From positions 186,001-250,000 of the forward strand of contig NZ_FMAC01000006.1 of NCBI RefSeq assembly GCF_900094555.1: a stretch of 64,000 bases of DNA. The letters are read 5' to 3'. The notes under the pieces were generated by a model, which saw only the letters and a program-made list of their open reading frames with translations, was not told the DNA's origin and searched no databases. Shown piece after piece: positions 29,022 to 43,317 of this stretch. Source of the DNA: Martinezella hainanensis. GTDB taxonomy: Bacteria; Pseudomonadota; Alphaproteobacteria; Rhizobiales; Rhizobiaceae. Every line of letters begins with the position of its first letter. The first letter of the stretch is position 1. Made by a program: the position numbers and the translations under genes.

Positions 29022-30182
29022 TCACCCAATATGCAATCGTTTCCCCACAGTCATTAGCATCCTGTCGGCACTTCTTGCGCCGAGCAACGACGATGAAACT
29101 TTTCCGCCTGCACTAGCGAGTGGAAACGTCAGCTGTGGACAACCGCTTAGGCCTGACAGACACAGAAGCTTGATGCAGCCGGAACGAAACGCTGCGAAGC
29201 TTTCCGGCGTAGCATCGCGCTTTGGCGGGCTCATCGCCAATGTCGGAAGAGCGACAACCACGTCATCGCAGAACAATCGGTCGATCTCCCTGGAAAAATG
29301 CTCTCGAATCCGACGCGCCTCGCGCACCTCCCCGACGTCCAGATTCGCTCCTGACAGAAGACGCGCGGCGATATCGGGTGCAATGGCTTGAGGCCGCCGG
29401 TCGAAAAGGGATCTGTTGCTTTCCCAAGCTTCCTTTTGGAGAATAGTGACGAATGCCGAGGCAAGCTCATCCAAATTGAACGAGCTGATCGAGCCTGCTT
29501 CGCGAACGGAAATGGCGGCCGATCGAAAACGGGCGATCATTCCGTCTGCCACATCTTCTTCGATGGTATCAAAGATATTCTCGACGATGAGAACGGAGGA
29601 TGGTCGGTCGTCTGCCGCAGGTATTCCGACAGCACTCATGAGTGCGGCCATCTGCTCCAGGCTTCGCGTCATGAAACCGGGCACATCGAAGCTCGGCGCA
29701 AGGGGGCGCAGCCCTCCGTTGTCGAGACTTCCATGTGTGGGCCGCCAGCCGACGAGACCGTTGATGGCGGCCGGCAGCCGGATGGAGCCGGACGTATCTG
29801 TTCCGAGGCCGATATCCGCAAGGCCCGCGGCGACTGCGACGGCAGAGCCCGACGACGAGCCGCCCGGAATGAGATCGGGATCGGAAGGATTGATCGGCAT
29901 GCCGAAATGGAGGTTGCCGCCGATGAGGGAATAGGCAAGTTCATCCGTATTGGTCTTGCCTACGAACCGGGCTCCCGCATCCAAAAGCGTTTGAACGAGA
30001 GGAGCCGTCGATGTCTTGATGCCGGAGGCAGCGAGTAACATGGCATTGCCGGCGGCCGTCGGATAACCAGTAACATCGAAAAGATCCTTGACGGCCAGGC
30101 GAAGGCCGGAAAGCGGGCCGGCAGCCGCATGCCCGACATTGGCTTCTGGATAGGGCATGAATGCGTTCCACCGGTCATCCAC
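29022..30182 (-). CDS. Amidase (AtzE/GatA-like)
   Basis: This compact 386-residue amidase-signature enzyme has Lys32 (LAVKDLFDVTG), the GGSSSGSA loop at 107-114 and nucleophile Ser133 in GTDTSGSIRLPA, all canonical. The start is GTG 30182 with GGGAG seven bases before it, 11 nt after the LivF stop. As the last gene of the amiC/amiR operon it probably hydrolyses the amide taken up by the transporter or released from a nitrile-type compound by the first enzyme. Confidence 0.9.
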   Translation of the reverse strand: MDDRWNAFMPYPEANVGHAAAGPLSGLRLAVKDLFDVTGYPTAAGNAMLLAASGIKTSTAPLVQTLLDAGARFVGKTNTDELAYSLIGGNLHFGMPINPSDPDLIPGGSSSGSAVAVAAGLADIGLGTDTSGSIRLPAAINGLVGWRPTHGSLDNGGLRPLAPSFDVPGFMTRSLEQMAALMSAVGIPAADDRPSSVLIVENIFDTIEEDVADGMIARFRSAAISVREAGSISSFNLDELASAFVTILQKEAWESNRSLFDRRPQAIAPDIAARLLSGANLDVGEVREARRIREHFSREIDRLFCDDVVVALPTLAMSPPKRDATPESFAAFRSGCIKLLCLSGLSGCPQLTFPLASAGGKVSSSLLGARSADRMLMTVGKRLHIG

Positions 30183-30193
30183 TTGCCCGCTCC

Positions 30194-30901
30194 CTAGATT
30201 TTCAGATGCTGCAGAACGCGGCCGCGGCTGTCCGGCCCATTGGAACTTTCGTCCTCGATCGTCCCGAGTTTGAGAATAGCCCAGCGATCCGCCACGGAAA
30301 GAGCGAAGTCCAGGTTCTGCTCGACCAGAAGGATGGTCGTGCCGCGCTTCTCACGATCATCCTTCAATGCATCGGCGATGTTGTGGACGACGGAGGGTTG
30401 CAGACCCTCGGAAATCTCATCGATCAGGAGGAGCTTTGGCCGCAGCATCAGCGCGCGCGCCAGGATCAGCATCTTTTGCTCCCCGCCCGACAGGGTCCCG
30501 GCCTTCTGAGCCAGGCGGTCCTTCAGGAACGGGAAATAGCCATAGACCCTATCCAGAGCGGATGCCAGATCGCGATCGCTCGTGAGCGCCAGGCGCAGAT
30601 TGTCGCGGATGGAAAGATCCTGAAACAGCGGCAACTCCTGCGGCGCATAGCCGATGCCGGAGGCGATCAGCTCCGTGGGCTTCCGGCCGGTAATAACAGC
30701 ACCGTCCACCTCGATCTTGCCTTTGCCAACACGCAGGAAGCCAAGAATCGTCTTCAGCAGCGTTGTCTTGCCCATACCGTTTTTGCCCATGAGGGCGAAG
30801 ATCTCGCCCGGCCGGATGGCGAGCGACACGCCATTGACGACATCGACCGCACCATATCCACTCGATACGCCGGTGAGCTTGAGTTTGAACGCTTCAGCCA
30901 T
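30194..30901 (-). CDS. livF: LivF-type ABC transporter ATP-binding protein
   Basis: The 235-residue NBD has Walker A GKNGMGKTT, signature LSGGEQKMLILARAL, Walker B LLLIDEISEGL and VEQNLDFAL, the LivF/UrtE pattern. Note Glu-Ile instead of Glu-Pro in Walker B (DEIS), as is normal for this subfamily. ATG 30901 overlaps the end of the LivM-LivG fusion by 8 nt. It belongs to the amide-regulated operon. Confidence 0.93.
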   Translation of the reverse strand: MAEAFKLKLTGVSSGYGAVDVVNGVSLAIRPGEIFALMGKNGMGKTTLLKTILGFLRVGKGKIEVDGAVITGRKPTELIASGIGYAPQELPLFQDLSIRDNLRLALTSDRDLASALDRVYGYFPFLKDRLAQKAGTLSGGEQKMLILARALMLRPKLLLIDEISEGLQPSVVHNIADALKDDREKRGTTILLVEQNLDFALSVADRWAILKLGTIEDESSNGPDSRGRVLQHLKI

Positions 30902-32651
30902 GGGCGCCTCCCGCGTAGATGGTGCGGACCGTTTCGGAATTGACAACCTCATCCACGGTGCCGTCGAGAACGAGCTTGCCCTGATGGAGAACCACGATGC
31001 GGCTCGATATATTGCGCACGAAATCCAGATCGTGCTCGACCAGGATGGCGGCGTACCCCATCTCGTCCGTCAGCTTCCTGAGAATGGTACCGATGGTCAT
31101 ACGCTCGGTCTTGGTGAGACCCGCCGTCGGTTCGTCGAGAAGAATGACACGGGGTTCCAGAGCGACGACCATCGCCAGTTCGAGAGCCTGCCTTTGACCA
31201 TGCGACAGCAGCGATACGGGCTTGTCCAGCATATCCGCCATGCCCGTCAGCGTCAGGATCTCGATTGCGGCCGCAGGCAGCGTGATCTCGGCAAGCGATC
31301 GCATCGGGCTGGGCGTCTCATGACTGAGACGCGCCATCTTGAGGCACTGGCCAATGGTCATGCTGTCGAAGATGCTGGCGATCTGGAATTTGCGCCCGAC
31401 GCCGAGCGCCACGATCCGTTCAGGCGCGCGACCGGCGATGCTCGTGCCACCGATGTCCACCTGGCCTTCGATCTGCTGAGTACCATCCGAGAGACAGCGC
31501 ATCAGTGTGGTCTTGCCGGCACCGTTCGGGCCAACGAGGCTGACGAGCTCTCCCCTTCCAATTTCAAGATCGATGCCCTTGAGGACGGAGAGGCTGCCAT
31601 AGGACTTGCCGAGACCACGGATCGACAGAAGGTTTTTGCCTGCGACGCCCCCCTCATTGAGGGCTAAGTGCGCCGGAAATGACTTCAGAGTGCTGTTGGA
31701 GCTTGCCGATTGCAGGAAACGCGTCACAAGAGATGCAAGGCCTCCCGGCAAGACGATGATCATAAGGACGAAGAGCGCGCCAACGATCAGCTGCCACAGG
31801 AAGGGCAGATCGCCAGAGAGACTGGCGCTCAGATAATCGATACCAACTGCCCCGACCAGGGGGCCGACAATCGTTCCGCGACCGCCGAGCGCTGTCCAGA
31901 CGACGAGTTCGGTGCCGAAAACGAAACCGGTATTCTCGGGCGCGACGACCCCGGACGCATTGGCGTAGAGGAAGCCCGCAAGGCCGCATACGCCGGCGAG
32001 AACACCCGTCAGGGCGATCTTCAGTACAGCAGGATTCATGCCCAAATAGGCGACGCGCGCTTCGTTGTCGCGGATCGCCACGAGCAACCGGCCGGCATCG
32101 GAGCGGACAAAAACCATCGCGAGAACAGCCAAGGTGAAGAGACACACGCCTGACAGGCGAAAATAGCCGGGAAGTCCGAGCGGCAGAGTGTCATAGCCGA
32201 CAAGACCGCTCGAGGAGCCGGTCCAGATACCGCCCGAAAAGACCAGTTGCGTGATGACGATCGGTACGACGAGCGAAATCACGGTGGCATAGAGCGGCGT
32301 CGACCCATGATAGAACGACAGCCAGCCGACCGCGAGGCCAAGCAGGAGCGGAACGAGGATGGCGGCGGCAAGCGCGAGGACAAATAAGGTCGGACTTGCG
32401 CCGATATGGGTGAGAACCATGGCGGTGGCATAGGCACCAACACCAAAAAATGCCGCCTGCCCGAAGGTGAGCACGCCCGTATAGCCCCAGAGCAAGTCGA
32501 CAGTGATCGCCAGCATGGCGTAGATCATCGACCGTGTAAGGACGTTGAGACTGAAGCGGCCGAGAAACATCGGTCCAAAGACAATCAGCAGGATTGCTGC
32601 GAACGCTAGCACCAGCAAAAGGACAAGCCGGAGTTTCTGTTTGTCAGGCAC
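30894..32651 (-). CDS. LivM-LivG fusion: ABC permease joined to ATP-binding domain
   Basis: One 585-residue chain contains a LivM-type permease (about 1-320: RSMIYAMLAITVDLLWGYTG, FFGVGAYATAM, ALGGRGTIVGPLVGA) followed by a LivG-type NBD (about 335-585: Walker A GPNGAGKTT, signature LSHGQRQALELAMV, Walker B VILLDEPTAGL, H-loop VEHDLDFVR). There is no stop between the parts. The start is GTG 32651, overlapping the LivH stop by 8 nt. Such fusions are known in urea/branched-chain type systems of alphaproteobacteria. Confidence 0.92.
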   Translation of the reverse strand: MPDKQKLRLVLLLVLAFAAILLIVFGPMFLGRFSLNVLTRSMIYAMLAITVDLLWGYTGVLTFGQAAFFGVGAYATAMVLTHIGASPTLFVLALAAAILVPLLLGLAVGWLSFYHGSTPLYATVISLVVPIVITQLVFSGGIWTGSSSGLVGYDTLPLGLPGYFRLSGVCLFTLAVLAMVFVRSDAGRLLVAIRDNEARVAYLGMNPAVLKIALTGVLAGVCGLAGFLYANASGVVAPENTGFVFGTELVVWTALGGRGTIVGPLVGAVGIDYLSASLSGDLPFLWQLIVGALFVLMIIVLPGGLASLVTRFLQSASSNSTLKSFPAHLALNEGGVAGKNLLSIRGLGKSYGSLSVLKGIDLEIGRGELVSLVGPNGAGKTTLMRCLSDGTQQIEGQVDIGGTSIAGRAPERIVALGVGRKFQIASIFDSMTIGQCLKMARLSHETPSPMRSLAEITLPAAAIEILTLTGMADMLDKPVSLLSHGQRQALELAMVVALEPRVILLDEPTAGLTKTERMTIGTILRKLTDEMGYAAILVEHDLDFVRNISSRIVVLHQGKLVLDGTVDEVVNSETVRTIYAGGAHG

Positions 32652-33477
32652 GGGCAAATCCTTTCGGGCGGATGCGCAGTACGACCGCGCAGAGGACGGC
32701 CACGGTAATGCCGCCGAGGATGGGGCTGAAATAGGTGCTAACCAGCACCTGAGCGGCACCGAAGATAAGACAGGCGGCAGCAAGCGCACCGAAAGAAGAG
32801 CCTGCTACCATCACCAGCATGAATGCGCCCGTCAGCCAGGCGACGCCCATATTGGGATCGACGCTGGTCAGCGGTGCGAGCAGCACGCCGGCCAAGGCGG
32901 CAAGGCCGGCGCCGATCATGAAAGTTGCGAGCCGCACCTTTTCCGTATCAATGCCGAGTACGCGCGCCAGCGTTTCGTTCATGATGACGGCGCGGGCGGA
33001 AAGACCAAGGCGTGTGCCATCCAAAAGAAGGGTGAAGCCGAGGCCCAGCGCGATCGCGGCGACAATGGCGAAAAGGCGATAGGACGAATAGCCGACGCCA
33101 AACAGATCGAAAGTGCCGGGTAGTAGCGCCGGGGTGAACTGCACATCGCGGCCAAACCAAAGGGTGATGAGCTGGCCGATGACGATGCCAAGGCCCCAGG
33201 TCGCAAGAATGGCATCGAGTGGCCGGCGATACAGAGGCCGGACGATGAAGCGTTCGGCGACACCGCCGAGAACGGCTCCGACCAGGAAGGCAAAGGGAAT
33301 GGCAAGCCATGGATTGAGGCCGAACCCGCCGACGACAACCGCGCAGTAAGCCCCGATGGTCAGCCATGCGCCATGCGCGAAATTGATGATCTTCAGCACG
33401 CCGAAGATCGCAAGCAGCCCCGCGGCAACGATGAAGAGAATGGCCGCAGTGCTGACGATATCGAGAAAGAGCGTCAT
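32644..33477 (-). CDS. livH: LivH-type ABC transporter permease
   Basis: The 277-residue branched-chain/urea-type permease has LAIFGVLKIINFAHGAWLTI at the N-terminus and LLAPLTSVDPNMGVAWLTGA later, with about eight hydrophobic segments. It forms the channel with the LivM part of the fusion protein. The gene follows the binding-protein gene after a GC-rich hairpin. Confidence 0.93.
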   Translation of the reverse strand: MTLFLDIVSTAAILFIVAAGLLAIFGVLKIINFAHGAWLTIGAYCAVVVGGFGLNPWLAIPFAFLVGAVLGGVAERFIVRPLYRRPLDAILATWGLGIVIGQLITLWFGRDVQFTPALLPGTFDLFGVGYSSYRLFAIVAAIALGLGFTLLLDGTRLGLSARAVIMNETLARVLGIDTEKVRLATFMIGAGLAALAGVLLAPLTSVDPNMGVAWLTGAFMLVMVAGSSFGALAAACLIFGAAQVLVSTYFSPILGGITVAVLCAVVLRIRPKGFARA

Positions 33478-33498
33478 TTCTGGAACTCCGATGCTGGA

Positions 33499-33519
33499 GG
33501 CGGGGCATCCTGCCCCGCC
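33499..33519 (-). promoter_or_regulatory. Stem-loop after binding-protein gene
   Basis: A perfect 9-bp stem, GGCGGGGCA / TGCCCCGCC, with a 3-nt loop lies 9 nt after the binding-protein stop and before livH, on the minus-strand transcript. No T-tract follows. It is the strongest of the five such hairpins in the window. Confidence 0.7.
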
Positions 33520-33528
33520 ACTCTGGTT

Positions 33529-34677
33529 TCAGAGCTTCGGGCACTGGTTGCCGGGATCGACGTCCTTGAAGCTATCGACGACCGCGACGCTGCCGTCATC
33601 CTTTACCTGGCCAAGATACATGGTCAGCGGCGCGTGGTGCTGCTTGTTCATGGAGATCTTGCCGCGCGGACCGGTGAAGGATACCTCGGGAAGAGCCTTG
33701 AGAACCTTTGCCGTATCGGTGCTGCCGGCCTTCTCGACGGCTGCCTTGTAAAGGTAGATCGCCTCATATTGCGGGACGGAAAGGTCGTTGGGCGTGCGCA
33801 GCTCCTTGCCGAACTTCTTGTCCATGGCCGAGAGAAACGCCTTGTTTTCGGGGCTGTCGATACCGGTCACGTAGGAAGCGGAGAGAAAGATGCCCTTGGC
33901 ATCCGCGCCCATGCTCTTGGCGGTACCCTCGTCGACGGCGAGATTGCCGTAAGGCAGGGTGACGCCGGCCGAGCGCAGTTGCTTGGTCAAGGTCACGTTC
34001 GGGGCGCCACCGGCCGTCGACGTCATGATGGCATCGGCCCCGGAGGACTTGATCTTGGAGATGATCGCCGTCCAGTCGCTACCGTCCATCGGCAGATATT
34101 CCTCGCCGACGACCTGGGCGCCGGCTTTTTCGATATAGCCCTTGGCAAAGCTCAGCATGCCGCGCCCGAAGGCATAATCCGAGCCGATGAGGAAGAATTT
34201 CTTCGCGCCCTGTTTGCTCATGAAATTGTCGACGACGGGCGGAACCTGTTGCTCGGGAACCCACGCATCGACGAAGAGATTGGCGTTGCAGGATTTGCCT
34301 TCGTAAAAGGATGTGTAGATATACGGCACGTCGCCCTTGGAAATGATCGGCAGTCCGGCATTGCGAGCAGCACTCGTCTCCATGGAGATGACGACATTCA
34401 CCTCCTTCTGGAAGACAAGGGAATCGAAGGCTTTTTGCGCGCCGGCCGCACCGGATGCATCGTCGGCGATCTCAAGCGCCAGCGGGCGTCCGAGCACGCC
34501 GCCTTTGGCATTGATTTCCTCGACGGCGAGTTCGGCAGCCTGAACGACGGACGGCGCGACCACGCTGTTTGCTCCGGAAAGCCCGACCGGTACGCCGATC
34601 TTGATCGGGTCCGCGGCGAAAGCTGCCGTGGCGTATGCCGCCGATGCCAGTGTGAGGACGATGGTTTTCATTTGCAT
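33529..34677 (-). CDS. Branched-chain/amide-type ABC transporter substrate-binding protein
   Basis: The 382-residue periplasmic type I binding protein has a signal peptide ending AAFA-ADPIKIG and the family blocks GVPVGLSGANSVVAPSVV, AAELAVEEINAKGGVLGRP and FLIGSDYAFGRGMLSFAKGY. It belongs to the Leu/Ile/Val-AmiC-UrtA superfamily, so amides or urea derivatives are plausible ligands in this operon. ATG 34677 has AAGGGA five bases before it. Confidence 0.92.
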   Translation of the reverse strand: MQMKTIVLTLASAAYATAAFAADPIKIGVPVGLSGANSVVAPSVVQAAELAVEEINAKGGVLGRPLALEIADDASGAAGAQKAFDSLVFQKEVNVVISMETSAARNAGLPIISKGDVPYIYTSFYEGKSCNANLFVDAWVPEQQVPPVVDNFMSKQGAKKFFLIGSDYAFGRGMLSFAKGYIEKAGAQVVGEEYLPMDGSDWTAIISKIKSSGADAIMTSTAGGAPNVTLTKQLRSAGVTLPYGNLAVDEGTAKSMGADAKGIFLSASYVTGIDSPENKAFLSAMDKKFGKELRTPNDLSVPQYEAIYLYKAAVEKAGSTDTAKVLKALPEVSFTGPRGKISMNKQHHAPLTMYLGQVKDDGSVAVVDSFKDVDPGNQCPKL

Positions 34678-34711
34678 TTTGTTCCCTTTTTCTTGATTTG
34701 GGTTGATATCA

Positions 34712-35557
34712 TTACCCGTAGACATCTGCGCGGCGGTCGCCGAGCAGATGATTGAAGCTGTTGAGCGTGCGAGTTTCCGCCACGCTCGACAGATCGATTT
34801 GCGCAAGGAGGATTTCCTCGCGATCCGTGCTCGCCGGACCGGACACCGGCCAGCCTTGAGGGCCGACAATAAGGCTGCGGCCGATGAAGGGCTGATCGCG
34901 CTCGATGCCGATCCGGTCGGCGCAGGCGATGTATAGGCCGTTGGTGTGGGCGGCAGCCTTGTGCAGAATATTGGCCATCGGCTCGGGAGCGCTTTCCGCG
35001 CCGGCCATCGGCACCCAGTTGGTGGGCACGCAGACCAGCTCGGCACCGGCCAGCGCCAGCTCGCGAAACGTTTCGGGAAACCAGCCGTCGTAGCAGATCG
35101 CGATACCGATGCGCCCAAAGGGCAGATCGAAAACCGGCAACCCGAGATCGCCTTTCTTGAAAAAACGATTTTCATTGTTCCAGAGATGGAGCTTGCGGTA
35201 TTTGCCGATATATCCCTCGGGACCGCACAGAAGAGCGCTGTTATAAAACCGATCGCCGTCCCGCTCGGCAATACCGCTGACGATATAGAGGCCGAGCTCG
35301 CCGGCAAGGCGGCAGAATACCCCGGCACTCTCGCCGCCTGGCACTGGGCCGGCCAATGCTGCAACCTCGTCGCCGTCCCGGAAGCTATAGCCGCTATCGG
35401 CCAGCTCCGGCAGAACAAGGATCTCCGCACCCTGGGCTTTCGCCGTCCTCGCCAGCCGCTCGATGGCAGCAAGATTATGGACACGATCACCGACGATCGG
35501 TTCGAACTGGACAGTCGCGACGGTTGCCGTCCGCGCCGTTGAGGCCTTGACGCTCAA
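34712..35557 (-). CDS. Carbon-nitrogen hydrolase (nitrilase superfamily)
   Basis: The 281-residue enzyme has the Glu-Lys-Cys triad: Glu in VLPELADSGYSF, Lys in KYRKLHLWN and Cys in AICYDGWFPETFRE. The WFPE context is like aliphatic amidases and N-carbamoyl-type hydrolases. TTG 35557 is chosen because GGAG lies six bases before it and just after the terminator; longer TTG starts to 35575 are possible. First enzyme gene after the antitermination leader, so its expression should depend on AmiR. The exact amide or nitrile is unknown. Confidence 0.88.
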   Translation of the reverse strand: MSVKASTARTATVATVQFEPIVGDRVHNLAAIERLARTAKAQGAEILVLPELADSGYSFRDGDEVAALAGPVPGGESAGVFCRLAGELGLYIVSGIAERDGDRFYNSALLCGPEGYIGKYRKLHLWNNENRFFKKGDLGLPVFDLPFGRIGIAICYDGWFPETFRELALAGAELVCVPTNWVPMAGAESAPEPMANILHKAAAHTNGLYIACADRIGIERDQPFIGRSLIVGPQGWPVSGPASTDREEILLAQIDLSSVAETRTLNSFNHLLGDRRADVYG

Positions 35558-35573: not shown

Positions 35574-35613
35574 AAAAAACCTCTGGCACGGAATTCAATC
35601 CGTGAACCAGAGG
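35574..35613 (-). terminator. Intrinsic terminator in the amiR-nitrilase leader
   Basis: On the minus strand CCTCTGG-TT-CACGGA, loop TTGAAT, TCCGTG-CCAGAGG forms a 13-bp stem with a two-base bulge, directly followed by TTTTTT. It lies 16 nt before the TTG start of the nitrilase gene, so it would stop transcription before the enzyme and transporter genes unless overridden. Confidence 0.88.
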
Positions 35614-35634
35614 CTACATAGCCACAATGTAAAC

Positions 35635-35665
35635 GCGGCAGCCCTGCCGCTGAGCAAACCTGCTC
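35635..35665 (-). promoter_or_regulatory. Dual-hexaloop ANTAR recognition RNA
   Basis: On the minus strand GAGC-AGGTTT-GCTC (35652-35665) is followed after one base by GCGGC-AGGGCT-GCCGC (35635-35650). Two adjacent hairpins with six-base loops upstream of a terminator are the known target of ANTAR proteins. The second loop has the conserved A1 and G4; the first has A1 but T at position 4. AmiR, encoded just upstream, should bind here and prevent termination. Confidence 0.75.
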
Positions 35666-35752
35666 GTTACCATTAAGTTTTCATGTAACGACGCGACCGT
35701 CAAGCGCCCCTATCAGACATTTTTTAAAATCGCCGAGCGATAGCACCTGGGC

Positions 35753-36376
35753 TTAGAGTTTACTTTTCCCGCCAATGGACAGTCCGAGGCTTTTCATCGT
35801 GTCTTGCGCGGCAATGATGGATTCGGCGATTGTCGCCATGGGAACGCGCTTCGACGTTGCCTGGTCGCGCAACAGCTTATAGGCCGCCTCCTCGTCGAGG
35901 CCGTTCATGACCCGCAGCGCCGAAACGGCTTTTTCGACCAGCCGGCGGCTTTTCAATGTTTCCTCGAGTTTCTGCACCTTGCCGGCCAGCCTTTTTTCGT
36001 AGCTCTGCCGATAACGCGCCAGCGCGAACTGCGTGAGGATGCCGAGCGGCCGTAGCGGTTTGCTGATGACGCCGTGGGCGTTGAGATCGATGATCGCCTG
36101 GAGTGCTGTCGGGCTCTCATAGGTCAGGATGGCGATGATCGCCGTTTGCTGGAGGTCGATGATCTGCAGCGCGTGTTCGACGTGCGTGTCCTCGACATGC
36201 AGGAAGACCGTGTCTACATCGGGAGGCAACGCCGGTGGCAACGGCCAGGTCGCCCTGACCTCGCAACCAAGGCGTTTCAAATGAGCGATCAATGTGTTGC
36301 CGTCTTCATCGCGTGGGTGGACGACCAGAACGCGCGCGCGCCGCAGATCCTGAATGATCCTGCTCGGTCCCGTCAT
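35753..36376 (-). CDS. amiR: ANTAR-domain transcription antiterminator
   Basis: The 207-residue protein has a receiver-like N-terminal domain lacking a clear phosphoacceptor pocket (RVLVVHPRDEDGNTL), a coiled-coil linker (about 120-145) and a C-terminal ANTAR helix bundle (AVSALRVMNGLDEEAAYKLL, RDQATSKR). This is the AmiR/NasR layout. It starts one base after the amiC stop, so the two are co-made and AmiC can hold AmiR inactive until amide is present. The target RNA lies directly downstream. Confidence 0.92.
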   Translation of the reverse strand: MTGPSRIIQDLRRARVLVVHPRDEDGNTLIAHLKRLGCEVRATWPLPPALPPDVDTVFLHVEDTHVEHALQIIDLQQTAIIAILTYESPTALQAIIDLNAHGVISKPLRPLGILTQFALARYRQSYEKRLAGKVQKLEETLKSRRLVEKAVSALRVMNGLDEEAAYKLLRDQATSKRVPMATIAESIIAAQDTMKSLGLSIGGKSKL

Positions 36377-37637: not shown

Positions 37638-39113
37638 TTAGCCATCGGCAACGGAAGCAAGTGGTTTGCCGTCATGAACCGATCCGGGCATCACATTGCC
37701 GGGTATCGGGCAGACATACGCCTGCCCATCGGTCTTGTCCGCCCATTCGGCCCTGGCCGCGGCCAAGAGTTCGGGCGTTGTCATCAGCGATAGCCCAGTT
37801 GTCGCAAGCGTTTTTGCAGCATGCACCATGGCCTTGTGGGCGACTACGCTCTTTCCCTGGGCGACGACCTGCCAGGTATGAGGATTGGTGCCGATCGCCC
37901 AGGCCGGCGTCCAGCATTGCGCCGTCGGCGTCACCCAGCTGACATCACCGACATCGGTCGACCCGGCGCGGAAATGCGACTGGCCTTCGAATTCGCGCAA
38001 GCCAAGATGCAGCGGCGTCGATCCGTCGATCTTCGCATTGGAAAAGACATCTCCCCTGATCTGATAGAGCCGGATGCTGCTCCTGATCGCCTCGTCGGTA
38101 AAGGTTTGCTGAATGGATTTGGCAAAAGCGAGATCCGCCTCGTCGAAGGCGATCGGGCCGAGCGCCATCATATTCTCGTGCATGGCGGTTTCGAGCGTGA
38201 TGTTCGGCAAGAGATTGGTCGAAGCCGTGTCGAACACGATCTCCACCTCCGTTTCCGTCATCATGGCGGCGCCGCGCGCCACTTTCTCGACGCGTTTGGC
38301 AAGATCCAGAGCCTGCGGCATTTCCGGAGCGCGGATCAGATAGAGCACCTCAGCCTTTGCCTGAACGACATTCGCCGCCCTGCCACCCGTATCGGTGATC
38401 GCATAATGCACGCGGCAATCCTGCGGCATGTGCTCGCGCAGGAAATTGACACCGACATTCATCAGCTCCACCGCATCGAGCGCCGACCGGCCGAGATGGG
38501 CCGCGTTCGACGCATGCGCAGCGACACCCTTGAAACGATAATAATATTCGATGACCGCGAGATTGTTGGTCGAGCGCACCCCGTTGAACGGCGCCGGATG
38601 CCAGGTCAGAGCGGTATCGACATCATCGAACAGACCCGCCCGCACCATGAAGGTCTTGCCTGAGCCGCCCTCTTCACCCGGGCACCCGTAATAACGGACG
38701 GTGCCAGGGAGATTATTTGCCTTCATGTGCCGGGCAAGAGCAACCGCCGCCATCAGCGAACCGACGCCGAGCAGGTTATGGCCGCAGCCATGCCCGGTCG
38801 CGCCATCGACCAGGGCTTGGCGCTCAGCGACATCGGCAACCTGGCTCATGCCGGCCAGCGCATCGAATTCGCCCAGAAAAGCAATCACCGGCTTGCCGGC
38901 GCCGAAATCGCCGATAAAGGCCGTCTCCATGCCGGCCACGCCGCGCCGGAGCGAAAAGCCATTATCTTCGAGCGCTTTTGCAAGGAGTTCGGACGAACGC
39001 GTCTCCTCGAATTTCAGTTCGGCAAAATCCCAGATGCTGTCGCTGAGCTTGGTAAAATCCGGCTTCATTCCTTCGATCGCTGCGGCAATCGATTGCACGG
39101 TCTCTTGATTCAT
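37638..39113 (-). CDS. M20-family amidohydrolase (AbgB-like)
   Basis: The 491-residue zinc peptidase/amidohydrolase has GEFDALAGMSQ, GHGCGHNLLGVGS (metal ligands), GCPGEEGGSGKTFMVRAG (Glu pair), TWHPAPFN and a dimerisation lid near HASNAAHLGRSALDAVELMN. It resembles subunit B of p-aminobenzoyl-glutamate hydrolase. No signal peptide. It is last in the peptide importer operon and probably cleaves an imported acyl-amino acid or dipeptide. ATG 39113 starts the conserved part. Confidence 0.92.
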   Translation of the reverse strand: MNQETVQSIAAAIEGMKPDFTKLSDSIWDFAELKFEETRSSELLAKALEDNGFSLRRGVAGMETAFIGDFGAGKPVIAFLGEFDALAGMSQVADVAERQALVDGATGHGCGHNLLGVGSLMAAVALARHMKANNLPGTVRYYGCPGEEGGSGKTFMVRAGLFDDVDTALTWHPAPFNGVRSTNNLAVIEYYYRFKGVAAHASNAAHLGRSALDAVELMNVGVNFLREHMPQDCRVHYAITDTGGRAANVVQAKAEVLYLIRAPEMPQALDLAKRVEKVARGAAMMTETEVEIVFDTASTNLLPNITLETAMHENMMALGPIAFDEADLAFAKSIQQTFTDEAIRSSIRLYQIRGDVFSNAKIDGSTPLHLGLREFEGQSHFRAGSTDVGDVSWVTPTAQCWTPAWAIGTNPHTWQVVAQGKSVVAHKAMVHAAKTLATTGLSLMTTPELLAAARAEWADKTDGQAYVCPIPGNVMPGSVHDGKPLASVADG

Positions 39114-39203
39114 CGCGCGTCCTCGTATCGTGCTGGCGCCTGCGAAGGGGCGCACGAAGCCGCTCGCCGCGAGGGCGCTGGCTTCCTCTTAAAAAGATGA
39201 GCT

Positions 39204-39233
39204 GCCCGCGCCGTCATCCGCATCGGCGCGGGC
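39204..39233 (-). terminator. Stem-loop after peptide-binding-protein gene
   Basis: A perfect 10-bp stem, GCCCGCGCCG / CGGCGCGGGC, with a 10-nt loop starts 7 nt after the binding-protein stop. On the minus strand a TTTTT run follows about ten bases after the stem, so it may be a partial terminator between the importer and the M20 hydrolase gene. Confidence 0.6.
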
Positions 39234-39240
39234 AAGCAAT

Positions 39241-40782
39241 TCAGTCGACCGACACTTCCCAGAGCCGGGCGTTCGACTGCCAGACCGGTTGGCCTTTCAG
39301 CGTCTTGCTGGCGCCCCAGACATCGACCATGTCGTAGAGGAAGATGCCCGGCATATCCTTCAGCATGAGTTCGTGGAATTCATCGAAGATCTTCTGCCGC
39401 TTGGTCTGGTCCGCCTCGACATAGGCAGCCTTCATCAATTCAATCGCCTTCGGGTCGTCCCACATCAACGAGGCGTTCTTGTCCTTGTCGCCGACATAGA
39501 AGGAATACATCAACGCTGGATCGAGACGTGGCGCCACAGACTGCGAAATGATCTGATAGTTGCCGGAGCGGCGGCGATCGACCTGGGTCGCGTAGTCGAG
39601 CACCTCGATCTGCACGTTGAGGCCGATCTGCTGCAGCATGGCCTGCGCCATCACGGCGACCGGGAAGCTCGGCACGTTGCCGCGCTTGTTGGCGATGATC
39701 GAGATCGGTTCGCCCTTGTAGCCGGACGCCTCGAGCTCCTTTTTCGCCGCCTCCAGGTCATACGGCAGACGCTTCTTCTGGGTCGCGTCGAAATAGACGG
39801 AATCCTGCGACACCATCGATCCATTGGCCTCACCCGTTCCGTTGGATGCGGCGGCAACGAGTTCATCGAGATCGAGCGCCATCGCCATGGCGCGGCGCAC
39901 GCCGGGCTTACCCAGCACCTTGTCGCGCGTCTGGATGTAGAACAGGTTCTTGCCGTTGTTGCGCGCCACGATGAGCTGCATCTTCGGGTTCGACTTGATT
40001 TCAGGGATCAGATCCGGCGAAAGTTCGGCCGTGTCGAGCACACCCGATTCCAGGCCGGCCTTCACGGTCGAAGGATCGGGAATGACCATGAACTTGATGC
40101 CGTCGGCGAGCGGTCGCTTGGAGCCGACCATGCCGTCGGGCTTGCCATCATTTGCCGGCGAGACGTAGTCGGCGAATTTCTTCAGGTGTATATATTCGCC
40201 CTTCTTCCATTCGTCCCACATGAAGGGACCGGTGCCGATCGGCTTGATGAAACTGCCGTCTGCGCCGACGGAATCGGGCGAGACCATCCCGGTATAACCA
40301 CACTCCGGACGCGACATCAGACCGAGGAAAACGGCGGAGGGCTTCTCGAGCTTGATTTCGACCGTCGACGCATCGACTGCCTTGACGCCGGTCACATGCG
40401 CTGCACCGCCGGCGGCAAAATCGGCGAGGCAGGTCCATTTCGTCTCGGGCTTCAGATAGCGCGTCCAGTTCCACACCACATCGTCCGCCGTCAGCAGCTT
40501 GCCATTATGGAATTTGACATCGGTCCTGAGCTTGAACGTATAGGTAAGACCATCGGCCGAGGTCTCGAAGCTCTTGGCGAGCAGCGGCTTTACTTCGCCA
40601 CTATTGTTGTAGCCGACGAGCCCCTCGACGATATGCAGAATGACGCCATCGGTATTGCCGTCGCGGTTTACGCCCGGATTGTTGCTGCGCAGGTCCGAAC
40701 TCTGCGCAACGGTGATATCGCGCGCTACCGCGACATTTGCCAATGCGAGCAGGGCCGCGCCCGCAAGAAGAAGCTTTTTCAC
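39241..40782 (-). CDS. Peptide-type ABC transporter substrate-binding protein (SBP_bac_5)
   Basis: The 513-residue periplasmic binding protein of the DppA/OppA family has a signal peptide (MKKLLLAGAALLALANVAVA) and the family blocks AKSFETSADGLTYTFKLR, DVKFHNGKLLTADDVVW, GTGPFMWDEWKKGEYI and VRRAMAMALDLDEL. It delivers a peptide, acyl-amino acid or similar ligand to the DppBC/DF permease. It sits after the serine hydrolase gene, 29 nt away. Confidence 0.92.
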   Translation of the reverse strand: MKKLLLAGAALLALANVAVARDITVAQSSDLRSNNPGVNRDGNTDGVILHIVEGLVGYNNSGEVKPLLAKSFETSADGLTYTFKLRTDVKFHNGKLLTADDVVWNWTRYLKPETKWTCLADFAAGGAAHVTGVKAVDASTVEIKLEKPSAVFLGLMSRPECGYTGMVSPDSVGADGSFIKPIGTGPFMWDEWKKGEYIHLKKFADYVSPANDGKPDGMVGSKRPLADGIKFMVIPDPSTVKAGLESGVLDTAELSPDLIPEIKSNPKMQLIVARNNGKNLFYIQTRDKVLGKPGVRRAMAMALDLDELVAAASNGTGEANGSMVSQDSVYFDATQKKRLPYDLEAAKKELEASGYKGEPISIIANKRGNVPSFPVAVMAQAMLQQIGLNVQIEVLDYATQVDRRRSGNYQIISQSVAPRLDPALMYSFYVGDKDKNASLMWDDPKAIELMKAAYVEADQTKRQKIFDEFHELMLKDMPGIFLYDMVDVWGASKTLKGQPVWQSNARLWEVSVD

Positions 40783-40811
40783 TGGTCTACCCTCTTATCT
40801 GTCGTTGATTG

Positions 40812-41675
40812 TTATGACGCAAATCCATCCCAACAGGCACGCGACAGCCTGCCGATCGTCTCGAGCGCCATCGTATATCCCGGCGTGCCGTCCGGCATGG
40901 CAAGCGGCACCTCATCGGTGTAGGCGGAGATGATGTAAAACGGCGCATCGTCGCGATAGACAATGCCGGCATTCATGCGGCCGCGCTTGCCGGTGCCGCC
41001 CTTGTGGGCGACGACGGTGCCGAAAGGCAGTCGGGACGGGATCGCATAACGCAGGATCTGGTTCTTCAGTGTCTGCAGCGCATAGGCACAGAGTGCGGCC
41101 GAGACGCCGAGCTTTTCCTGAACCGCCGTCGAAGTCTGCGCATCGAGGATCATCTGAAGAAGTACGGCCTGGTCGCGCGCCGTGGTGGTCGTCACCGACT
41201 TCAGCGCGTGATCCGGTGACAAAGCGAGCGGCGGGATCAGAAAGCGGTGGTGCGTGCCGGCAAGCCCGATCGACTTGCAATAAATGTCGACCTCCTCCAG
41301 CGTCAGGCGTTCGAACACCATCTTGGTGCAGACATTGTCGCTGAGCACCATCATGCCGGTGATGGCGTCACGCAGCGAAATGACGATGCCGGGGGTCATA
41401 TAGCGGAACATGCCGCTTGCCACTTCCTCGGCAAAGCGCGCTTCATAAGTAACAGGCTCGTCGAGATCGAGCCGCCCCTCCTGTGCCGCCTTCAGCGCAG
41501 CCATCATGATCGAGGTCTTGCGGGTGCTCGCCGAAGGCGTTTCTTCGTCAGCACATCGTTCGATCGTCTCGCCGGTCAAAAGGTTGCGCATCAAGAAGCG
41601 GGTTACGAAGGGTTGCGCGTCGCAGATCTCTGCGAGCCGCTCGGCAACCGAAGCGGAATTGGAAAGACTGACCAC
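40812..41675 (-). CDS. Class A beta-lactamase-fold serine hydrolase without signal peptide
   Basis: The 287-residue protein has the three penicillin-recognising motifs: Ser50-Thr-Arg-Lys53 (SxxK), Ser112-Asp-Asn114 (SDN) and Lys225-Gly-Gly-Thr-Gly (K[ST]G-like). It lacks an export signal and an obvious ExxLN omega-loop motif, so it is unlikely to be a periplasmic antibiotic-resistance enzyme. The start is GTG 41675, next to the ATPase stop. Its place between ATPase and binding-protein genes of a peptide importer suggests a cytosolic amidase/peptidase acting on the imported compound. Confidence 0.85.
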   Translation of the reverse strand: MVSLSNSASVAERLAEICDAQPFVTRFLMRNLLTGETIERCADEETPSASTRKTSIMMAALKAAQEGRLDLDEPVTYEARFAEEVASGMFRYMTPGIVISLRDAITGMMVLSDNVCTKMVFERLTLEEVDIYCKSIGLAGTHHRFLIPPLALSPDHALKSVTTTTARDQAVLLQMILDAQTSTAVQEKLGVSAALCAYALQTLKNQILRYAIPSRLPFGTVVAHKGGTGKRGRMNAGIVYRDDAPFYIISAYTDEVPLAMPDGTPGYTMALETIGRLSRACWDGFAS

Positions 41676-41676
41676 A

Positions 41677-43317
41677 TCAATTCTCCAGGCGCCATTTGAG
41701 TATCACACCACCCTTTTCATTCTGGTCGAGGGCGGGAATGGCCGAGAGGAGCCGGCGCGTATAGGCCTCCTTCGGGTGATCGAAAATCATGTCGCGGTCG
41801 CCTTCCTCGATGATGCGCCCCTCCTGCATGACGACGACGCGGTCGGCGACCTGTTCGACGACACCGAGATCGTGGCTGATGAAGAGGCAGGAGAAGCCGT
41901 AGCGCTTCTGCAGATTGGAGAAGAGCTCCAGGACCTGGGCTCTGACCGTGACGTCGAGCGCTGAAACCGGCTCGTCGGCAATGAGAAAGCGAGGGCGTCG
42001 CGCGATGGCCCGGGCGATCGCCACGCGCTGCCGCTGACCGCCCGACAGTTCATGCGGGTAGCGGTTGGCGTAGTCACTGCTAAGACCAACCTCCTCAAGC
42101 GTTTCCAAGGCCCGCATGCGCTTGGCGTCGCCTTCGAGATCCGGCACAAGCCTGAGCGCCTCTTCGACCAGCGCCTGGATCGTCATGCGCGGATCGAGCG
42201 AAGAATAAGGGTCCTGGAAGACCATCTGGCAGTTCAGGCGGTAGTCGCGCCAGTCTTCATCGCGTGACCGGCCCTGAAAGCGAATGTCGCCTCCGCTCTG
42301 CTTGACAAGACCGGCAATGGTCCGGCCGAGCGTCGTCTTTCCTGAACCCGATCCACCGACCAGGGCGACAACTTCGCCTTCATGGATATCGACGCTGACA
42401 CCGTGCAACGCGCGCTTGGGGTTCCCCCTTTTGAGCAGTGACTTGCGGCCGGCATAATCGACCACGATGTTACGGGCAGAAACCATCGGCGCCCGCGAGG
42501 TATCGACGCGGCGGGTTTCGCTGCGGAACGGCAAAGAAGACAGGAGCTTCTTCGTATATGGGTGCTTCGGTGCCTCAAGCAGATCCTCGGTACGCCCCTG
42601 CTCGACGACTGCGCCCTTTTCCATGACAACGATATGGTTCGTATATCGCGCCACCATCGGCAAATCGTGACTGATGAGGAGAACGGCCGTTCCCTCCGCC
42701 CGCGTGAGGTCGACCATAAGCTCCATCACATCGCGCTGGATGACGGCATCCAGTGCGGTGGTCGGCTCGTCGGCGATGAGGAGCGCCGGCTTCAAGAGCA
42801 TGACGGAGGCAAGCATGATGCGCTGGCGCATGCCGCCCGAAAACTCGTGCGGGTACGAGATGAGCGCCCCTTCCGGTTCGCGAATCCCGACACGCTTCAA
42901 CATGTCGAGAATGCGCAGGCGGCGCTCATCGGGCGAGAGCCTGGTGTGGAGAACAAGCCCCTCCTCCAGCTGCCGGCCGATTGTCATCGACGGATTGAGC
43001 GAGGTCATCGGTTCCTGGAAGACGACGCCGATCTCGCCACCCCGCAACTCGCGAAGCTCCCGACCCTTCATCGCCAGGACGTCGCGTCCCTTGTAAGTGA
43101 CGGCTCCGCCGACAACGCCGATCGCCTGCGGCAACAGCGATATCAGTGCACGGGTCGCCAGCGTCTTGCCGGAGCCGCTCTCGCCGACGATGCCGAAGAT
43201 CTCGCCGGCCGCGATATCGAAACTGACGTCCTTGACCACCCTATGGCTGGATCTTGCGACCTCAAGCGAAAGATCGCGGACGCTGAGAAGAATGTTCCCT
43301 GCTGTTTCGGATGTCAT
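41677..43317 (-). CDS. Peptide ABC transporter double ATPase (DppD-DppF fusion)
   Basis: The 546-residue protein has two complete NBDs. The first has GESGSGKTLATRAL, FSGGMRQRIMLASVM and LLIADEPTTALDAVIQ; the second has GGSGSGKTTLGRTIAG, LSGGQRQRVAIARAIA and FLIADEPVSALDVTVR. Both have H-loops (LISHDLPMVAR, FISHDLGVVEQ) and oligopeptide-type C-terminal ends (HPYTKKLLSSLP, EAYTRRLLSAIP). Fused GsiA-like ATPases are usual in such systems. ATG 43317 overlaps the DppC-type gene by four bases. Confidence 0.95.
   Translation of the reverse strand: MTSETAGNILLSVRDLSLEVARSSHRVVKDVSFDIAAGEIFGIVGESGSGKTLATRALISLLPQAIGVVGGAVTYKGRDVLAMKGRELRELRGGEIGVVFQEPMTSLNPSMTIGRQLEEGLVLHTRLSPDERRLRILDMLKRVGIREPEGALISYPHEFSGGMRQRIMLASVMLLKPALLIADEPTTALDAVIQRDVMELMVDLTRAEGTAVLLISHDLPMVARYTNHIVVMEKGAVVEQGRTEDLLEAPKHPYTKKLLSSLPFRSETRRVDTSRAPMVSARNIVVDYAGRKSLLKRGNPKRALHGVSVDIHEGEVVALVGGSGSGKTTLGRTIAGLVKQSGGDIRFQGRSRDEDWRDYRLNCQMVFQDPYSSLDPRMTIQALVEEALRLVPDLEGDAKRMRALETLEEVGLSSDYANRYPHELSGGQRQRVAIARAIARRPRFLIADEPVSALDVTVRAQVLELFSNLQKRYGFSCLFISHDLGVVEQVADRVVVMQEGRIIEEGDRDMIFDHPKEAYTRRLLSAIPALDQNEKGGVILKWRLEN

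Follow-up and report, generated by a model that had tools for sequence, protein, structure and literature searches.

The locus described here raises the question of what function the gap between amiR and a nitrilase-family gene serves in Martinezella hainanensis. The gap lies in a window of 64,000 nucleotides (contig NZ_FMAC01000006.1, positions 186,001 to 250,000), which is the whole stretch of DNA that was analysed. A preliminary description had proposed AmiR-type antitermination, and this core idea is well supported by gene order, protein domains, comparative RNA evidence and the overlap of a hairpin with a terminator, although the hairpins had been wrongly assigned. The leader is highly likely, judging from these features, to be an AmiR-controlled transcription attenuator placed between amiC-amiR and the nitrilase, ABC-transporter and amidase genes.

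Genes and leader anatomy at the amiCR-nitrilase locus

The 195-nt gap of the preliminary description was borne out, with amiR ending at 35753 and the nitrilase TTG at 35557 on the minus strand (Table 1). The gene immediately upstream encodes, as had been stated, an ANTAR protein; AmiR_N and ANTAR are both above the curated cut-offs and an AmiC-type gene is adjacent (Pfam), which places the protein among the AmiR members. Read from the TTG, the nitrilase gene is 846 bp long, the length of the annotated homologue. The ABC transporter of the putative target operon is of the branched-chain type (Pfam), and the gene order of this operon matches the annotation in R. leguminosarum pRLG202. The leader had been described as lying inside the amiC-amiR operon; its place is rather directly downstream of amiC-amiR, possibly behind a promoter of its own.

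Farther upstream, the amiC strand carries ORFs (37638-43317) that by eye resemble an M20-type amidohydrolase, an extracellular solute-binding protein, a beta-lactamase-like protein and a two-domain ABC ATPase. On an Agrobacterium vitis plasmid (L095), a phenylacetaldoxime dehydratase-family gene is found near the amiCR-nitrilase operon, a hint of aldoxime or nitrile substrates.

Table 1 Positions of genes and leader elements, numbered from the first letter of the window
Feature	Position	Strand	Evidence or remark
amiC, amide-sensor-like protein, 383 aa	36378..37529	minus	Pfam Peripla_BP_5, E 7.5e-128
amiR, predicted ANTAR antiterminator, 207 aa	35753..36376	minus	Pfam AmiR_N, E 3.7e-35; ANTAR, E 2.5e-13
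Promoter-like boxes TTGACG (35703-35698), 17 nt, AAACTT (35680-35675)	35675..35703	minus	9 nt before P0
P0, extra upstream hairpin, GAGC[AGGUUU]GCUC	35652..35665	minus	1 nt 5' of P1
P1, putative recruitment hairpin of the ANTAR pair, GCGGC[AGGGCU]GCCGC	35635..35650	minus	Comparative and covariance evidence
P1-P2 linker, 11 nt, ACAU motif	35624..35634	minus	Motif counts in relatives
P2, putative antiterminator hairpin on the terminator 5' base, GGC[UAUGUA]GCC	35612..35623	minus	Terminator overlap and comparative evidence
Intrinsic terminator CCTCTGG-tt-CACGGA...TCCGTG-CCAGAGG-TTTTTT	35574..35613	minus	-22.7 kcal/mol; kept in relatives
Nitrilase-family gene, TTG start 35557, GGAG 35567-35564	34712..35557	minus	CN_hydrolase, E 6.6e-53
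Remaining putative target operon: substrate-binding protein, permease, fused permease-ATPase, ATPase, amidase	29022..34680	minus	Pfam

The two six-base-loop hairpins reported at 35652-35665 and 35635-35650 are present there with the loop letters as given, and the 13-bp GC stem with TTTTTT (35574-35613) was also found as 13 pairs and U6, in detail as 7 + 6 pairs around a 2-nt bulge. Together with the terminator, these two hairpins, P0 and P1, had been taken for the full architecture of AmiR/NasR antitermination, an assignment that failed because only 1 nt separates them and 21 nt remain between P1 and the terminator stem, and because a third hairpin, P2, had been missed. ANTAR antiterminators are described as a pair of hairpins, each with a six-base loop that has A1 and G4, the second of them at the terminator 5' base (PMC3369931). 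P1, with C[AGGGCU]G, and P2, with C[UAUGUA]G, form a dual hexaloop with C-G closing pairs, and both loops can be drawn as tetraloops too. The linker of 11 nt falls within the 5-12 nt that occur naturally in Enterococcus faecalis eut leaders, where linkers of 3 or 14 nt drastically cut induction (PMC3369931). P2 (35623-35612) reaches into the 5' base of the terminator (35613-35574), whose stem begins with the 3' arm of P2, although the strict overlap in this leader is only 2-3 nt.

A1 and G4 do not occur together in both loops of the pair: P1 has A1 and G4, P2 has U1 and G4, and P0 has A1 and U4. In EutV targets, a change of A1 to U lowered induction (PMC3369931). The T at position 4 of "loop 1", which the preliminary description had read correctly, is a feature of the extra upstream hairpin, because the ANTAR pair is P1 and P2 and not P0 and P1.

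The position of P2 also bears on whether AmiR acts on termination or on the translation or stability of the nitrilase mRNA. Ribosome-binding sites are close to, or covered by, some published ANTAR matches (PMC3369931), but here P2 overlaps the terminator and the ribosome site (35567-35564) lies 3' of the U-tract, so that an effect on translation or stability is extremely unlikely, the least probable of the alternatives weighed here.

The predicted energies are -22.7 kcal/mol for the terminator, -9.5 for P1, -4.9 for P0 and -4.7 for P2; given the difference between the terminator and P2, the terminator would win without protein. The minimum-energy fold of the whole gap holds neither P0 nor P1 as drawn, their arms being paired together, whereas the centroid fold contains both. 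Folding during transcription would favour P0 first. The minimum-energy fold was not used because the P0 and P1 stems change across relatives, but it still counts against the proposed structure. A simple terminator scan listed P1 and not the bulged terminator at 35613-35574. No Rfam family reached its gathering score in the window, two weak unrelated matches remaining below it.

Comparative evidence for the hairpins

The 12 named relatives comprise 11 Rhizobium and 1 Neorhizobium. In an alignment of 13 sequences, made up of the window and 12 relatives (L033-L044), mean pairwise identity was 0.985 in P0-P1, 0.987 in P2 and 0.989 in the terminator. The corresponding values were 0.499 directly behind amiR, 0.811 for the linker between P1 and P2 and 0.885 for the initial codons of the nitrilase gene; the leader hairpins and the terminator are conserved beyond chance.

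For a wider comparison, ANTAR-type loci were gathered from whole genomes and plasmids, and the 420 nt downstream of each gene were scanned with a rule that required a folded terminator and, spanning the terminator base, a 3-pair C[N6]G hairpin (P2). P1 was the most stable hexaloop hairpin 3-16 nt 5' of P2, scored with its loop open, so that positions 1 and 6 were not selected for by the rule. The loci were the best-scoring matches of the searches, with 14 of 275 plasmid records taken, and are not a random sample. They are grouped here by the residue of the ANTAR protein at the place of EutV Met172, mapped for our AmiR by an ungapped alignment of its ANTAR domain to EutV 6wsh. P2 with a terminator was obtained by rule in 79 of 127 deduplicated loci and could not be detected by rule within 420 nt in 48, comprising 35 Met, 8 Thr (of 53) and 5 other loci.

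Three of the 8 rule-negative Thr172 loci (L122, L161 and L166) carry a P2-like hairpin by eye; in L122 and L166, P2 keeps GGCU/AGCC with an inner loop of 5 or 6 nt, which suggests that the U-A of P2 is a real pair. The other five (L098 and L200 from Paraburkholderia plasmids, and L212-L214) have no leader by rule within 420 nt, and the targets of their AmiRs may lie elsewhere.

During curation, four Met172 rows were dropped (L011 and L102, no P1 found; L195 and L199, judged not credible), and the Met172 rows L089, L101 and L116 were corrected by hand. This curation favours G4: L102, L195, L199 and the automatic L089 were without G4 in P2. The counted set consisted of 75 leaders (45 Thr172, 30 Met172) with 58 distinct P1-P2 stretches. 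Two tandem terminators follow amiR in L089 and L102; the first of L089 bears a textbook A1/G4 pair (AACGAC and AACGGA), and its second and both of L102 fit the leader rule poorly.

Among 51 of the 58 distinct stretches, 8 of the 10 stem pairs changed on both sides. The double-change cells numbered 65 against a shuffled mean of 19.4, a value reached in 0 of 500 shuffles, and dropped to 5-21 when the partners were slid by 1-3 columns; P1 and P2 were chosen by pairing, which inflates paired-cell percentages, and related sequences can exceed shuffles without structure. Further pair types (18 against 15.5, with 46 of 500 shuffles as high) did not go beyond the shuffles. A covariance model was made without Rhizobium-like stretches and C-G-loop forms, using 14 of the 32 distinct P1-P2 stretches of Thr172 leaders. 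It matched exactly 35650-35612, that is P1-P2, with 50.6 bits and E 1.5e-10 (next match 13.0 bits), E-values being rough owing to the short calibration. With a model of all 51 stretches, this leader included, it was the best site of its own genome (E 0.001; next E 1.06).

ACAT is present in 24 of 29 distinct Thr172 linkers versus 1 of 24 distinct Met172 linkers. A pseudoknot of this motif with the P2 loop (ACAU with AUGU) would fit the leader described here and was rejected, as loops such as UUUGAA break the pairing (by eye).

A 4-pair hexaloop hairpin 1 nt 5' of the P1 stem is present in 34 of the 45 Thr172 leaders, against a shuffled rate of 0.087 at 0-3 nt, with the stems GAGC/GCUC (26), GGGC/GCCC (5) and GUGA/UCAC (3). 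Because most P0 loops resemble P1 loops, P0 looks like a duplicated recruitment hairpin. P0 and P1 are both near-invariant in Rhizobium, and P1 has A1 and G4, as would be expected if they formed the ANTAR dual hexaloop and acted on a separate, non-overlapping downstream terminator. As the ANTAR pair they were nevertheless rejected, owing to the 1-nt linker and the lack of terminator overlap, compared to 11 nt and an overlap for P1 and P2; moreover, P0 is absent from 11 of the 45 curated Thr172 leaders (the curation itself required P1 and P2), and only 5 of 30 Met172 leaders have a P0-like hairpin, with mixed spacing. Action of P0 and P1 on a separate terminator is thus very unlikely.

Upstream sequence of 60 nt or more was available for 41 Thr172 leaders, and 38 of these have TTGA 35-75 nt 5' of P1 (shuffle mean 6.2, maximum 14), a count that left out three shorter leaders and includes many close Rhizobium relatives; the commonest distance to P1 is 53 nt. 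A promoter may lie upstream of P0, and with a start site at the putative boxes the transcript would start roughly at P0. The boxes at 35675-35703 were absent from the output of the sigma-70 scan, and the -10 box is weak. This conserved box, together with the strength of the terminator, is what a plain unregulated terminator would offer if it split amiCR from a nitrilase operon that is driven by a separate regulated promoter, in which case the hairpins would be incidental or part of promoter control. However, the terminator lies 3' of the TTGA box and 5' of the start codon, where it would block the operon constitutively, and the P1 stems covary; we regard this explanation as even less likely than that of a separate terminator under P0 and P1.

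Residue 172 of AmiR and the loop sequences

On the basis of the EutV-RNA structure, Walshe et al. proposed that EutV Met172 plugs the RNA hexaloop and may exclude tetraloops, and that A1, which has no specific contact in the complex as described, may prevent cross-loop pairing; G4 stacks on Tyr164, and the change of Met172 to Ala abolished binding (PMC8934654). The AmiR of the present locus has Tyr at the Tyr164 position and Thr at that of Met172, so only one of these two EutV contact residues is retained. Position 172 was occupied by Thr in 53, Met in 69, Gln in 2, Leu in 2 and Ile in 1 of the 127 loci. The 32 proteins with Thr172 came out as one group, with a single change, in a tree of 95 thinned sequences (present in 94% of bootstrap trees; support 91/84, which is below the tool's mark, with the position 172 column left in the alignment), which fits one origin of the Met-to-Thr change. 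Gln (L103, L186), Leu (L187, L197) and Ile (L196) at the Met172 place, with no leader found downstream, are possible further losses of Met172.

In the curated Thr172 leaders, positions 1 and 6 are Watson-Crick partners in P1 in 45 of 45 cases (11 of 11 distinct loops: A-U 7, C-G 3, U-A 1) and in P2 likewise in 45 of 45 (14 of 14 distinct loops, all U-A), with G4 in 32 of 45 P1 loops (5 of 11 distinct) and 41 of 45 P2 loops. The curated Met172 leaders have such partners in 8 of 30 P1 loops (7 of 22 distinct) and 15 of 30 P2 loops (8 of 18 distinct), and G4 in all 30 of both. Fisher tests on the distinct curated loops, which ignore ancestry, gave p 1.7e-4 for the 1-6 pair and 4e-4 for G4 in P1, and 1.3e-3 and 0.44, respectively, in P2. 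Without hand curation, the Met172 counts were 10/32 (1-6) and 29/32 (G4) for P1 and 16/34 and 30/34 for P2, with p 5.5e-4, 0.015, 1.9e-4 and 0.63 in the same order; the 1-6 contrast holds and the G4 contrast is weaker. The idea that a U1 in P2 marks the Thr172 clade was discarded, since 7 of the 18 distinct P2 loops of curated Met172 leaders have U1..A6 as well.

As the change to Thr172 fits a single origin, its link with the loop rule is a correlation with a single event. Two observations do not depend on that event. Of 26 distinct stretches in the Thr group, 6 have a P1 1-6 pair altered at both positions and none has it unpaired, and leaders with the C-G or the U-A form are found on different parts of the tree (L183; L010 together with L099 and L185; L049). 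Drawn as tetraloops, both loops of the L099, L201, L202 (Paracoccus) and L185 leaders have the sequence GGCA, once closed by C-G (C[GGCA]G) and once by U-A (U[GGCA]A). Together, the loops suggest that Thr172 AmiRs may read tetraloop-like hairpins. The guess of wider loop tolerance in the preliminary description was in the right direction, as the residue that plugs the loop is a different one in this clade, and the loops of the clade obey another rule. Tentatively, the clade may have combined the change of Met172 to Thr with a changed RNA code, in which 1/6-paired loops serve as tetraloops closed by A-U, U-A or C-G, G4 of P1 is dispensable and the recruitment hairpin is mostly duplicated (P0 and P1), a proposal to which we give somewhat less than an even chance. 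A complementary 1-6 pair closes in free RNA whether or not AmiR needs the closure, and this counts against reading the loops as a code.

Proposed attenuation and relation to known ANTAR systems

The anatomy of the leader, its conservation, the covariation and the P2/terminator overlap rest on sequence, while AmiR binding, the order of events and the control by ligand are what we infer. By default, the nascent leader would form the strong terminator and RNA polymerase would halt before the nitrilase gene. Binding of an amide-like ligand by AmiC would free AmiR, by analogy with P. aeruginosa AmiC/AmiR, and AmiR would engage P0/P1 first and then stabilise P2, by analogy with EutV. Since the 3' arm of P2 is the 5' base of the terminator, the terminator could not close once P2 was stabilised, and the operon would be read. 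Against the attenuator stand U1 instead of A1 in P2, an AmiR without Met172, the minimum-energy fold and the 48 of 127 rule-negative loci.

The leader class and the Thr172 RNA code would be a variant of the ANTAR attenuator theme, and the leader is very probably a real attenuator. No paper on such a leader class or on Thr172 was present among the matches listed from the open-licence literature, a search that covered titles and the starts of abstracts. A clade without Met172 that carries loops able to pair across is apparently a natural test of the proposal of Walshe et al. If the changed code is true, ANTAR proteins use at least two RNA codes, which suggests how parallel ANTAR switches, for example AmiR and NasT, stay apart in one cell, and searches limited to A1/G4 hexaloops miss targets.

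In Pseudomonas aeruginosa, amiC, amiR and amiE encode an AmiC-type sensor, an ANTAR protein and amide catabolism, and the leader precedes amiE. The present locus resembles that system in its AmiC-type sensor, AmiR_N and ANTAR protein and amide-type catabolic genes (PMC3369931). It differs in that the leader is located 3' of amiR and not 5' of amiE, and in P. aeruginosa AmiR (PDB 1qo0) positions 164 and 172 are occupied by His and Met. The leader scan found no hairpin pair 5' of the AmiE-type genes in L075 and L084.

The genome contains two ANTAR matches, AmiR and one other protein with Phe164/Met172, which is probably NasT-like because its neighbours read from the sequence as NasS and a nitrate-binding protein. 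The hairpin 5' of the putative nrtA, CTTCGATC[AACGGC]GATCGAGG, has A1/G4 and positions 1 and 6 unable to pair; no clear P2 was found 5' of this gene. The AmiR and NasT-like systems may be insulated from each other in one cell. With NasR/nasF of Klebsiella oxytoca and the NasT leaders, the amiCR-nitrilase leader shares the two-hairpin motif with a terminal C:G pair and the overlap of the second hairpin with the terminator, the SELEX preference there being A1/G4 (PMC7496416). Unlike in the NasR/NasT systems, the sensor is of another kind.

The E. faecalis eut/EutV system is similar in having a pair of small hairpins, the second of which (P2) sits at the base of the terminator, and a linker of 5-12 nt (PMC3369931, PMC8934654), and in an ANTAR protein gene that serves the same pathway. 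However, as described, Met172 is required in EutV, and both loops of its targets must have A1 and G4 (PMC3369931, PMC8934654), whereas the leader of the present study combines U1..A6 in P2, complementary positions 1 and 6, a Thr172 AmiR and a third hairpin.
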